A DNA stretch of 35,636 nt from Deltaproteobacteria bacterium (GTDB lineage: Bacteria > Desulfobacterota > Dissulfuribacteria > Dissulfuribacterales > QOAL01). The stretch is taken from NCBI GenBank assembly GCA_026986785.1, contig JALSNW010000027.1:1-35636 (forward strand). Reading direction: 5' to 3'. Each line of letters starts with the position of its first letter. Within the stretch, counting starts at the first letter, position 1. The translations under genes were made by a program, and so were the position numbers. Shown here in pieces: positions 851-5,208 of this stretch. The notes beneath the pieces are model-generated. The model saw only the letters and a program-made list of their open reading frames with translations, searched no databases and was not told the DNA's origin.

Positions 851-1276
851 ATGAATTATGAACCAAAGATTATAGCATTTTGCTGCAACTGGTGCTCCTA
901 TGCGGCAGCAGATCTGGCAGGGATCTCGAGGATCCATTATCCACCAAACGTAAGGATCATCAGGGTCATGTGTTCCGGGATGGTCCATCCCGACCTGGTG
1001 ATAGAGGCCCTGAACAAGGGGGCAGACGGAGTGATGGTCCTTGGGTGACACCTGGGAGAATGTCATTACCAGGATGGTAATTACAAGGCCCTGGCCAGGG
1101 CACAGATGGTGGAAGAGGTATTGGAAGATTTCGGATACGAAAAGGAACGGTTCATGATCTCTTGGTGCTCTGCTGCAGAACCAGATAGATTTGCAGAGGA
1201 AGTTACCAAGATGACCAAAAAGGTGGAGGCCCTGGGACCACACCGGAACAGCCTTGCCAAGGCCAAAGTAGGCTGA
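851..1276 (+). CDS. mvhD: MvhD, F420-non-reducing hydrogenase iron-sulfur subunit, selenoprotein (UGA 1046-1048 = Sec66)
   Basis: MvhD carries electrons from the MvhAG hydrogenase to HdrA. A conventional reading stops at a TGA after VMVLG. The same frame continues as [16 protein letters not shown], which is the conserved MvhD motif GCHxGDCHYxxGN with the first Cys replaced by UGA. The reading then runs to the TGA at 1274, giving 141 residues, a normal MvhD length. Other candidate cluster ligands are the CCNWC stretch near the N-terminus, MCSG, the Cys of ECHY and a late WCSAAE. The ATG at 851 has an AGGAG ribosome site 9 nt upstream. A SECIS-like hairpin lies directly downstream of the UGA (1061-1085). 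The gene sits between hdrA and mvhG with short gaps, so one operon is likely. Selenoprotein forms of MvhD are known in deltaproteobacteria. Incorporation here is inferred from frame, motif and hairpin. Confidence 0.93.
1061..1085 (+). promoter_or_regulatory. Bacterial SECIS hairpin of mvhD
   Basis: Perfect 6-bp stem ATTACC (1065-1070) with GGTAAT (1076-1081) around the five-base loop AGGAT. The stem is extended by TGT/ACA after one C-T mismatch. The loop starts 22 nt after the UGA, and G is at its second position, both as expected for SelB-binding bacterial SECIS elements (loop roughly 16-37 nt from the UGA, G in the first two loop bases). It lies within coding sequence, as bacterial SECIS elements must. 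Confidence 0.85.
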
Positions 1277-1289
1277 AAGGAGCTCAATC

Positions 1290-2213
1290 ATGGCAATAAA
1301 GGTAGCAGAAGAATGGCTGAGTGCCTGTTCAGGCTGTGAGATAGCCATATTGAACATGGGTGAAGCCCTGCTGGATCTACTGGAGCAGTTGGAGTTTGTG
1401 CATATGCCAGTGCTCATAGATCACAAATACCTCGGACAGCTCGGTCAGTCAGATACGATTGACATTCCAGAGGCTGATATTGGAATCGTCTCAGGGGCTG
1501 TTGCCAATGAAGAACACCTCGAGGTACTGAAAAAGATGAGAAAAAGTTGCAGGCTGCTCATCGCCCTTGGCACATGTGCGACTCACGGCGGCATACCTGC
1601 CTTGCTGAACTCATGGACAATGAAGGAGGCCCTTGAAACCATCTTCAGCACCCCCACCACAGAAATACCTGCATCTATACCGGACAAAGGGGTCCCCCCG
1701 CTTCTCGACCGCATTTATGCAGTGGACGAGAAGGTAAAGGTTGACATACTCATGCCTGGATGCCCACCCAATCCTCAACACATAGCAGAGCTATTCGCAA
1801 CCCTTCTCGAAGGAGACCAGCCAACACTCCCAGAGAAGAGCGTGTGCGACACATGCCCAACCCTGAGAAAGGGTAAAGGTGGGGTTAAGAAGATAAAAAG
1901 ATTTCTTGAAAATGCAGCTTGCGACCCCAAGGAGCCCCTTGACAAGATGCAATGCCTGCTGGAACAGGGTTTCATGTGCATGGGGCCTGTAACTGCAGCA
2001 GGCTGTGCTGCCGAAGGCGCGCCCCGCTGCATAAGTGCACGTGTACCATGCAGGGGCTGTTTTGGGCCAGTACGGCCACATGGTAACCAGATGCTCGACA
2101 TGATAAATGCCCTTACCAGCAATGGCATAGATTGGAAGACGATAGTAGACCGGCGCTCTCTTCTGCGCTTTTCAGGGGCCCATGGCCTTCTAAGGCCCAT
2201 TGGCCACAAGTAA
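1290..2213 (+). CDS. mvhG: MvhG, [NiFe] hydrogenase small subunit (group 3c type)
   Basis: Small, iron-sulfur-carrying subunit of the F420-non-reducing hydrogenase. It relays electrons from the MvhA nickel-iron centre toward MvhD/HdrA in the cytoplasm. The 307-residue product starts at an ATG preceded by AAAGGAG. The N-terminal SACSGCE motif supplies the first two proximal cluster ligands, followed by LGTCATHGG and MPGCPPNP, the usual third and fourth ligand motifs of hydrogenase small subunits. A Cys-rich C-terminal half (CDTCP, CLLEQGFMCMG, GCAAEG, RVPCRGCFGP) matches the additional cluster region of group 3 small subunits. No twin-arginine signal is present, in agreement with a cytoplasmic enzyme. 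The stop is 18 bp from the mvhA start. No selenocysteine codon is involved in this subunit. Confidence 0.95.
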   Translation: MAIKVAEEWLSACSGCEIAILNMGEALLDLLEQLEFVHMPVLIDHKYLGQLGQSDTIDIPEADIGIVSGAVANEEHLEVLKKMRKSCRLLIALGTCATHGGIPALLNSWTMKEALETIFSTPTTEIPASIPDKGVPPLLDRIYAVDEKVKVDILMPGCPPNPQHIAELFATLLEGDQPTLPEKSVCDTCPTLRKGKGGVKKIKRFLENAACDPKEPLDKMQCLLEQGFMCMGPVTAAGCAAEGAPRCISARVPCRGCFGPVRPHGNQMLDMINALTSNGIDWKTIVDRRSLLRFSGAHGLLRPIGHK

Positions 2214-2231: not shown

Positions 2232-3689
2232 ATGGATAAGGTAATAAACATTCAGCCGGTCACTCGGATAGAGGGACATGCCAGTATTGCCATTCACCTG
2301 GACGACAATGGCAATGTCCACGAAACCAGACTGCACATCATGTCGCTCAGGGGCTTTGAAAAATTCATAGAGGGCCGACCTGCGGAAGAGGTGCCAAGGA
2401 TAGTCAACAGGATATGTGGGATATGTCCGTGGATGCATCATCTCGCAGCCTGTAAGGCAGTGGATGCCTGCTTCGGCATTACGCCTCCACCAGCTGGGCA
2501 CAGGCTTAGGGAACTGTGCCAGGTAATGGCCCATATAAGTGACAAGATCCTCCATTTCTTTTTCCTGGCAGCCCCCGACTTCGTCATGGGCCCAGATGGA
2601 CACTACAGTGTAAGGAACATAATGGGGATCGTAAAAAAGGCCCCGGAGCTGGCATCAAAGGTGGTGAAGATGCGCCAACTCGGCCAGAATATGCTGGAAC
2701 GATTTGCAGGAAAGGCCATCCATCCCATAGCCGGGGTCACAGGGGGATTTGCAAAGCCCATGCTGGAGGGGGAAAGAAAAGAACTCACCAATGGGGCAAG
2801 GCAACTGCTCGACTTTGCCCTCTACGGCCTTGACTATGCCAAAAAGAATATCTTCAGCCAGTATGAAGAACTCATAGAAGAATTGGGGGCCATAGAAACT
2901 GGATTTTTGGGGACCGTGGACACCCAGGATAGTCTCAGGCTCTATGATGGAAAGTTAAAGCTCATGAAGCCTGATGGGACCTATACCAAATTCAGCAGTG
3001 AAAATTATACAGATTTCATAGAGGAACACGTAGCACCTTGGTCCTACGCCAAGATGCCCTACGCAAAGGTTTGGGGTGAAGGCTTCTCACTGGATCTCGA
3101 TGGCCCGAAAGGCATATACAGGACGAACACCCTGGCGAGAATCAACGTGGCAGACAAGATGGCCACTCCCCATGCCCAGGCCGCCCTTGAAGAATTCAGA
3201 GACAAATTTGGTCGACCTGCCCAAAGCACCTTGCTTTATCATTGGGCCAGGCTTATAGAGCTGGTCTATGCCTGTGAAAGGACGGTAGAGATCCTGGAAG
3301 ATGACCAGATCACGGACCCAGAGGTTAGGGTTGCCTCTGAGCCCAGGGCAGGTAGAGGAATAGGCTGCGTAGAGGCACCAAGGGGCACGCTCATTCACGA
3401 TTATACTACTGACGAAAATGGTTGCATCACAAGCGCCAACATGATCGTTGGAACTACACACAATATTGCCCCCATGAACCTGAGTGTTGGCATGGCAGCC
3501 AGGTCCCTCATCAAGAAAGGTCGAATAAACGAAGGACTGCTCAACAGGATCGAGATGGCGGTCCGCGCCTATGATCCGTGAATCTCTTGTGCCACCCACC
3601 GCCTGGACGGCGGCCCACCAGTTACGATTTCGGTCATAGATTCGAGAGGGGAGCTTGTTGCACGCATAGACAACTACCAGGAGGCATGA
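2232..3689 (+). CDS. mvhA: MvhA/VhuA, [NiFeSe] hydrogenase large subunit, selenoprotein (UGA 3579-3581 = Sec450)
   Basis: Catalytic subunit of the Mvh hydrogenase. The N-terminal nickel-ligand motif is RICGICPWMHH. The second ligand motif, normally DPCxxCxxH, appears as DP-UGA-ISCATH, so the first Cys is replaced by UGA. A conventional reading would end after DP and leave an enzyme without half of its nickel ligands. Reading on gives 485 residues ending at TGA 3687. Residues 457-485 would be the tail removed after His456 by the maturation endopeptidase. A SECIS-like hairpin follows at 3599-3613. Methanogen Vhu/Fru hydrogenases and several deltaproteobacterial enzymes carry Sec at this same position. 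The ATG at 2232 is preferred over the TTG at 2217 because GGAGG lies 8 nt before it. The 3' end overlaps an ATG of the next gene. Confidence 0.95.
3599..3613 (+). promoter_or_regulatory. Bacterial SECIS hairpin of mvhA
   Basis: A five-pair all-GC stem, CCGCC (3599-3603) with GGCGG (3609-3613), encloses the loop TGGAC. The loop begins 22 nt after the UGA, exactly the distance found in mvhD. The loop again has GGA in its centre and G at position 2. The stem is shorter than in mvhD but strong. Confidence 0.8.
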
Positions 3690-3691
3690 TC

Positions 3692-3934
3692 ATGGTTGAC
3701 AAGAAAAGGAAACGAAAAGTAGTGAAGGCAGAATGCCCAAGCTGTGCATGTGGCTATATCGGCCATATGACCGTTGACGAACTAAGAGAACGGGCAGTTG
3801 GAGAAGATTTTGATGCAAGGTGTCCAGTATGCCGCCAGATACACCTCAGCAGGGAGGAAATAGAAGAGATAGAAAGATGTCGGCTGGTCGAATCAGAACA
3901 GTTTCAGGAGGTAAAGAAACAGGCAGAGGCCTAA
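3692..3934 (+). CDS. Small zinc-ribbon-like protein in the mvh operon, unknown function
   Basis: An 80-residue protein with a very basic N-terminus (DKKRKRK) and two CxxC knuckles, CPSC at residues 15-18 and CPVC at 44-47, with an extra Cys at 20. This is the layout of a zinc-ribbon or small metal-binding fold. The rest is charged and helical (LSREEIEEIERC). I do not recognise a named family. The ATG at 3692 is preferred because AGGAGG lies 7 nt upstream. An in-frame ATG at 3686 overlaps the mvhA stop (ATGA) but would have almost no spacing. Either way translation is coupled to complete translation of mvhA, which requires UGA read-through. Position suggests a role in hydrogenase maturation, regulation or complex assembly, but that is inference only. 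Confidence 0.75.
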   Translation: MVDKKRKRKVVKAECPSCACGYIGHMTVDELRERAVGEDFDARCPVCRQIHLSREEIEEIERCRLVESEQFQEVKKQAEA

Positions 3935-4029: not shown

Positions 4030-5208
4030 TTAGATTATCAAAAAACCATCTGGGCCAAGGCTTGTTGCAAGCATCACAGAATTTATCTCCCTGTGATCGT
4101 TCCATGTCCCAACGGACTGATTTTCCCCGTTCAACCAAAAAGCCTCTATGTCTCCGGCAAGGGGAATATACTCAACAAGCCCTGAGAGTGCCGCCTTGAG
4201 ATCTGCATTCCCATGGAACAAGGAGCCTTCCTCTTGGATCCACCTGCCCATACGCTCGACTCCATGAAGACCTATGGAAAGGCCAAATTCTCGAAATGCC
4301 AGTCTGTATTCTGCTGAAAGATCCAAGAGCCTTGTCCCAAGAAAGTATCTAAGTCCCTCAGCTGCTGCACTTAATAGGCTCACAAGAAGGGGCACATCCT
4401 CCATATAATGGCTCTTTATCATCTGGGCCACCCTGCACGAGTCGAAAAGCAGGCCCCCGAGACCCAATGGATCATCTGTGACCAGGTCTATACCCTGACA
4501 GATGCCCGCCATATCACGGATCTCATCCAAGAGATCAGGATATTGACCCGCCTTCATCAGATCCATTGGGCCGCACATCTGAAGTTCATTGTAGGTTACA
4601 TAGCCATCCAGGGGGTCATGTTGTCCCATGGAGGGGACCAACACCCTGGTCAAGTCAACACTCATCTTCCAATACATGCGCTTCTTGCCATCGACCGAAG
4701 AGACATAAGTGAATGCAGCATGGGCTGTCTTTGCAAGATCTATTGCCCACCTGTTGTAAGTAAGATCACCCGTTACCCGGCTCACCTTGTTCAATGCATG
4801 CATCCACTTGGTGAGATAGTGATAATACTGTCCATCTCTGTCCCATTCCAGACGTTCATCGAAAGGCTCATCAATCCCACGTTCAAGAAGGGGCTTACCT
4901 ATCCTGAGTCCTCCAATTGTGGGATGATCTTTTCCTTCATCCTCATCCAAACCGCTAATCCATCCAGTCCTTGAATCATCTTTGCTGAAACGCCCGAGAA
5001 TAAAGTGGACCTGATCCACGAGCTGCAGGGCAAGATCCTTGTATATCTTGTCCTGGGTGAGTCTGAAAAGCTCCAAAAAATTGCATACAGCAAAGGCATC
5101 TGTCCAGAGATAACGCCGTGGGGAAGGGCTTGGAGGGGAAAGCCCTGTTTCCCGTGCAAACTCTTCCATTATCGTCATAATAACTGCTATAGCTGCCTCT
5201 GACTTCAT
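4030..5208 (-). CDS. Conserved hypothetical protein, possible six-hairpin (alpha/alpha barrel) fold
   Basis: A 392-residue soluble protein with no signal peptide or membrane segment. The sequence is rich in amphipathic helices with aromatic and acidic conserved-looking patches (YLWTDAFAVCNFLEL, RDGQYYHYLTKWMHALN, GQHDPLDGYVTYNELQ, FWLNGENQSVGTWNDHREINSVMLATSLGP). The pattern of repeated helical hairpins with W/Y and D/E resembles six-hairpin glycosidase-like folds, but no catalytic motif can be assigned with confidence. The start at 5208 has AAAGGAG about 7 nt upstream. It is divergent from the P-type ATPase gene and convergent with the mvh operon, so it is probably a separate unit. No function is proposed. 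Confidence 0.8.
   Translation of the reverse strand: MKSEAAIAVIMTIMEEFARETGLSPPSPSPRRYLWTDAFAVCNFLELFRLTQDKIYKDLALQLVDQVHFILGRFSKDDSRTGWISGLDEDEGKDHPTIGGLRIGKPLLERGIDEPFDERLEWDRDGQYYHYLTKWMHALNKVSRVTGDLTYNRWAIDLAKTAHAAFTYVSSVDGKKRMYWKMSVDLTRVLVPSMGQHDPLDGYVTYNELQMCGPMDLMKAGQYPDLLDEIRDMAGICQGIDLVTDDPLGLGGLLFDSCRVAQMIKSHYMEDVPLLVSLLSAAAEGLRYFLGTRLLDLSAEYRLAFREFGLSIGLHGVERMGRWIQEEGSLFHGNADLKAALSGLVEYIPLAGDIEAFWLNGENQSVGTWNDHREINSVMLATSLGPDGFLII

Follow-up and report, generated by a model that had tools for sequence, protein, structure and literature searches.

A predicted selenocysteine-containing, Hdr-linked group 3c [NiFeSe] hydrogenase large subunit (MvhA) in a bacterium of the Dissulfuribacterales

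An operon with the gene order glpC-hdrA-frhD-frhG-frhA, encoding Sec in four of its proteins, was described by Zhang et al. in 2006 from Syntrophobacter fumaroxidans, which has three copies, and from Desulfotalea psychrophila, and transfer between archaea and Deltaproteobacteria was proposed (PMC1794560). The excerpted text of the genome paper of Desulfobacterium autotrophicum HRM2 names a selenocysteine-containing MvhA2DG, and the Sec genes listed there include mvhD genes but not mvhA by name (PMC2702500). In a 2026 review, MvhA/VhuA/VhuU with the motif UxxC is treated as an established selenoprotein family (PMC13188914). The Sec MvhA operon is not new, and has been known in related sulfate-reducing bacteria since 2006.

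Genes of such an operon lie at the start of the window, by which we mean the whole 35,636-nt stretch of DNA that was analysed (Table 1). When TGA was translated as a residue, mvhA gave one unbroken frame with a single internal UGA, and its terminal stop is also a TGA (3687-3689). UGA450 falls exactly on the first Cys of the C-terminal CxxC ligand pair (DPUISC), the replacement that defines a [NiFeSe] enzyme, and the N-terminal pair in RICGIC is intact. A Pfam search of the product returned NiFeSe_Hases (PF00374) with an E-value of 1.2e-34. The nearest solved chains in the PDB were MvhA-type: 9sw2 chain F matched with 8.5e-124 over residues 5-479, so that the homology to MvhA expected of a group 3c large subunit extends across the full length, and 5odc matched with 7.2e-117 (394 bits). 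The NCBIfam models VhuA (1e-136) and VhuU (1.3e-9) also matched; the VhuA score of 455.9 bits is below the equivalog cut-off of 800 bits, in a model which fits the split Methanococcus form. The genes mvhD, mvhG and hdrA stand beside mvhA, as in group 3c operons. The mvhA product is very probably the catalytic subunit of a cytoplasmic Hdr-linked group 3c (Mvh/Vhu) [NiFeSe] hydrogenase with UGA450 decoded as Sec. The in-frame UGA itself is real, and selenocysteine is almost certainly what it encodes at the nickel site. The original prediction had proposed an MvhA of group 3c type with selenocysteine at the nickel site (DPU-ISC-ATH), the UGA standing for the first Cys of the C-terminal motif. The read-through translation, with U450 at that place, and the Pfam, structure, NCBIfam and operon evidence agree with this. 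Its parallel to Vhu, with Sec at the same ligand position, is borne out by the VhuA and VhuU matches, and the position of the motif likewise agrees with its remark that a gene call ending at the UGA loses the C-terminal ligand pair.

Table 1. Features of the operon in the window, with positions, strand and supporting evidence
Feature	Position	Strand	Evidence
hdrA, C-terminal part, cut by contig end	3..821	+	NCBIfam HdrA 1.4e-66; rest, including Sec codon, on contig C9
mvhD with predicted Sec66 (UGA 1046-1048, motif GUHLGECH)	851..1276	+	PF02662 5.7e-55; read-through frame
SECIS-like hairpin past mvhD UGA: ATTACC / AGGAT / GGTAAT	1065..1081	+	same register as mvhA hairpin
mvhG, small Fe-S subunit	1290..2213	+	PF01058 7.6e-30; NCBIfam VhuG 2.9e-63
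mvhA, predicted [NiFeSe] hydrogenase large subunit, 485 aa with Sec450	2232..3689	+	read-through translation, PF00374, PDB matches, homologues
N-terminal nickel/iron ligand motif RICGIC, residues 60-65	2409..2426	+	translation; within PF00374 match
C-terminal nickel/iron ligand motif DPU-ISC-ATH (DPUISCATH), residues 448-456	3573..3599	+	translation; kept in relatives
UGA codon predicted to be read as selenocysteine, residue 450	3579..3581	+	TGA in 80/80 best homologues; TGC/TGT in Cys relatives examined
Predicted bSECIS hairpin CCGCC / loop UGGAC / GGCGG	3599..3613	+	pairing and covariation in Sec relatives
Putative C-terminal propeptide, residues 457-485	3600..3686	+	removal after His456 inferred from [NiFe] large-subunit maturation
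Small Cys-rich, zinc-ribbon-like protein, 80 aa (CPSCACGYIGH...CPVCRQIHL)	3692..3934	+	homologues downstream of mvhA

A scan of 84,980 species genomes yielded the best 80 homologues of MvhA, which are 66-75% identical and come from separate genome records; the named records among them are Desulfobacterota/Deltaproteobacteria. Every one of the 80 has a TGA at the codon of UGA450 (79 in one alignment, with L051 added separately), and the similarity runs on past this codon to the C-terminus. Across 297 sampled genomes of the phylum, nearly all MvhA matches above about 57% identity were with a TGA, while the more distant ones were mostly without; of the distant ones examined at the site itself, most carry TGC or TGT. 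Divergent relatives were overlooked when the motif was scanned by regular expression for Sec or Cys, and tblastn covered the rest. On a tree of 52 sequences, 3 changes suffice to account for the Sec, Cys and truncated forms, compared with a mean of 16.6 after shuffling. The Sec forms group together on this tree, and within one large clade Sec MvhA is the norm.

Of 46 genomes of the order, only 14 gave a match to MvhA, and two congeneric, near-complete genomes (G311 and G312) lack Sec mvhA, a patchy distribution pointing to repeated loss or transfer. One genome of the order (G181) encodes a very divergent MvhA (L152, about 43% identity, branch length 2.3) which still has the UGA in DPUISCATH, followed by a short tail. 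In family f44, three loci (L145, L146 and L158) have MvhA-like frames of about 450 residues that break off at the C-terminal ligands or shortly before them; they end in RAYNP or RAYAP, followed by TAG, TAA or a few residues, and L145 is also without one N-terminal ligand Cys (RICGIS). These three adjoin a Sec form (L132) on the tree and look like non-catalytic MvhA proteins from a Sec ancestor.

The stem of a hairpin begins 18 nt past the UGA of mvhA. With the U of UGA numbered 1, the stem joins nucleotides 21-25 to 31-35 and encloses the loop UGGAY, in which the first two positions contain a G as in bacterial SECIS elements. All five pairs are formed in 101 of 103 distinct Sec sequences, although part of this pairing is imposed by the conserved peptide HRLDGG and by common descent. 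Among the same sequences, the pair 23/33 is without exception either G-C (97 sequences) or A-T (6), the pair 21/35 occurs as C-G in 85 and as T-A in 13, and all 103 use CTG for the Leu at the loop. When the 3' arms were re-dealt among the sequences, 84 ± 1.5 were fully paired, as against the 101 observed. The 12 Cys relatives pair poorly at these positions and the hairpin is not formed. The covariation thus identifies the predicted element as a bacterial SECIS. The folding energy of the 42 nt past the UGA gave no signal against synonymous shuffles (z of 0.12 for the window, median z of -0.30), a test we regard as uninformative since it measures 42 nt and not the hairpin alone; what marks out the region is this particular hairpin with its covariation. 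The genome has the complete bacterial selenoprotein machinery: tRNA-Sec (selC) is at C22:1233-1326 with 74.9 bits, above the family cut-off, selA and selB are present, and selD is present with an in-frame TGA of its own.

An error of sequencing or assembly, or a true nonsense mutation in a decaying gene, could also place a TGA inside mvhA. The organism is known from a draft assembly of 52 contigs, and truncated copies do occur in three relatives, which belong to another family of the phylum. However, UGA450 is not a sequencing error, because all 80 best homologues, from other assemblies, share the TGA at the same codon. The persistence of frame and protein similarity to the C-terminus, the covarying hairpin after the UGA and the Sec machinery in the genome also speak against error or decay. 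This explanation was rejected on the conservation of the TGA, and we regard it as extremely improbable. If the UGA ended translation, the 449-residue product might be functional as a structural MvhA without the C-terminal nickel ligands, and the f44 loci described above do retain an MvhA-like frame ending at the ligand pair or just short of it. Those truncated relatives, however, either end in TAA or TAG or no longer have the tail, whereas the present gene conserves the residues past the UGA, has both RICGIC ligands and is accompanied by a SECIS and a maturation protease. A functional product ending at residue 449 is very unlikely.

For reading of UGA450 through tRNA-Trp, Cys or a general stop suppressor, no supporting evidence was found. 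Both mvhA and mvhD use TGA as their terminal stop, the relatives without Sec have Cys and not Trp at the site, and the full Sec machinery is present. Stop suppression was rejected on these three grounds, and its chance is close to nil.

The genome's other hydrogenase bears on a further possibility raised in the original prediction, namely that a Cys-form mvhA paralogue supplies the activity while position 3579 is a read error. A search of the organism's own genome with MvhA matched nothing but MvhA itself and, weakly, parts of a single further large subunit, and with no second MvhA and the TGA in 80/80 homologues this possibility was not borne out. The other complete [NiFe] large subunit, at C19:12689-14236, has the motif DPCIACAVH and is accompanied by a small subunit with a Tat-type leader and by cytochrome b; the cluster continues with genes read as hypF, hypD, hypE, a HycI-type protease, hypA and hypB. 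It looks like a periplasmic group-1 Cys enzyme. Since this group-1-like, periplasmic protein is the only other complete large subunit, no Cys MvhA stands in.

Upstream, the operon continues on contig C9 (4291 nt), of which positions 4169-4291 overlap positions 1-123 of the window. The 123-nt overlap has one mismatch, and therefore the assembly break is placed inside hdrA. The joined order is protease tail-glpC(U)-hdrA(U)-mvhD(U)-mvhG-mvhA(U), followed by a small Cys-rich protein. Sec was found in mvhD in 68 of the 79 homologous locus records having the motif, a few of which are duplicates. The GlpC/HdrD-like selenoprotein contains a CCG domain and a 4Fe-4S dicluster. It carries an N-terminal helix-turn-helix (PF12728, 1.4e-7; L186, C9 positions 187-1623 of genome G000), and this fusion is kept in L189, L190 and L192, while the helix-turn-helix stretch alone matches in L051 and L195. 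A second hdrA(UGA)-mvhD(UGA) cluster in the same genome (L187, G000:C51:13000-21500) adjoins a carbon monoxide dehydrogenase-like gene. The small Cys-rich protein had no match in Pfam or NCBIfam; of the 92 related locus records long enough downstream, 62 have a homologue, 114-424 nt past the Sec codon, and the protein may be a partner in maturation or in the complex. The operon of Desulfoprunum (L020) is followed by genes that we read as hypD and hypA.

Maturation of [NiFe] large subunits includes the cleavage of a C-terminal propeptide. The original prediction had called for the protease that cleaves after His456, and a candidate was located just upstream of the operon through its linked position in relatives: C9:2-166 encodes 55 residues, the last of the protein, matching the C-terminal end of HycI-type proteases near homologous operons (E-values of 3e-14 to 2e-4). 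By this match the tail is the best candidate for the cleavage. A direct HycI family search of the genome returned just one protease, that next to the group 1 hydrogenase; it missed the cognate protease because the gene is cut by the start of C9. Two Cys-type MvhA proteins, in L144 and L141, end exactly at the maturation site (SCATH and SCATM, each followed by a stop) and therefore need no cleavage; the genomes concerned show only one HycI-type protease.

For the proposed mechanism, we take the HdrABC-MvhAGD complex (PDB 5odc) as a model. SelB and tRNA-Sec would decode UGA450 as Sec, directed by the hairpin, and Sec450 would replace Cys as a nickel ligand. After nickel insertion, the HycI-type protease would remove the residues beyond His456. 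H2 would be oxidised, or made, at the Ni-Fe site, with electrons passing through MvhG and MvhD to the HdrA flavin, which would probably split them between ferredoxin and a second acceptor reached via the GlpC/HdrD-like selenoprotein. We infer Sec insertion, Ni-Se ligation, proteolysis and the identity of the acceptor, and also, by homology, H2-fed electron bifurcation at HdrA. More specifically, the complex might depend on selenium for bifurcation and have Sec in four redox subunits; its second acceptor, reached via the helix-turn-helix-fused GlpC, would then be an undescribed thiol or DsrC-type substrate and not a CoM-S-S-CoB-like heterodisulfide. We consider this speculative and rather unlikely.

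Automatic callers split mvhA at the UGA, and likewise mvhD, hdrA and glpC, and therefore the hydrogenase may be annotated as a fragment, or not at all, in many genomes of the Desulfobacterota. The large homologue set with its covarying SECIS is a clean basis for correcting such annotations. This work adds a larger set of homologues, a SECIS supported by covariation, the joining of the operon across two contigs and the assignment of a protease.

Compared with the Vhu [NiFeSe] hydrogenase of Methanococcus (VhuA/VhuU), Sec is at the same nickel-ligand position. In Methanococcus, however, the Sec-bearing tail is the separate small subunit VhuU, whereas here it belongs to one chain, in which the VhuA and VhuU models match successive parts (5-428 and 432-458). 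The SECIS here is of bacterial type and adjoins the UGA, while that of Methanococcus Vhu is a 3' UTR element, the usual placement in archaea. The Methanothermococcus thermolithotrophicus HdrABC-MvhAGD complex (5odc) shares the MvhA-G-D subunit set and homology to MvhA over most of the chain, but its partner is HdrB/HdrC, in place of the GlpC-type partner found here. In the HRM2 genome paper, MvhA2DG is likewise a cytoplasmic Sec Mvh hydrogenase beside a Sec HdrA, but in HRM2 hysAB is also in the cluster and there are many Hdr paralogues (PMC2702500). The closest match is to the operon of Zhang et al. (PMC1794560): over C9 and the window the same five genes occur in the same order with UGA in GlpC, HdrA, FrhD/MvhD and FrhA/MvhA, in Deltaproteobacterial hosts. 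The present operon differs in being split over two contigs, in the HycI-type protease tail before glpC, in the N-terminal helix-turn-helix of GlpC and in the small Cys-rich protein after mvhA.
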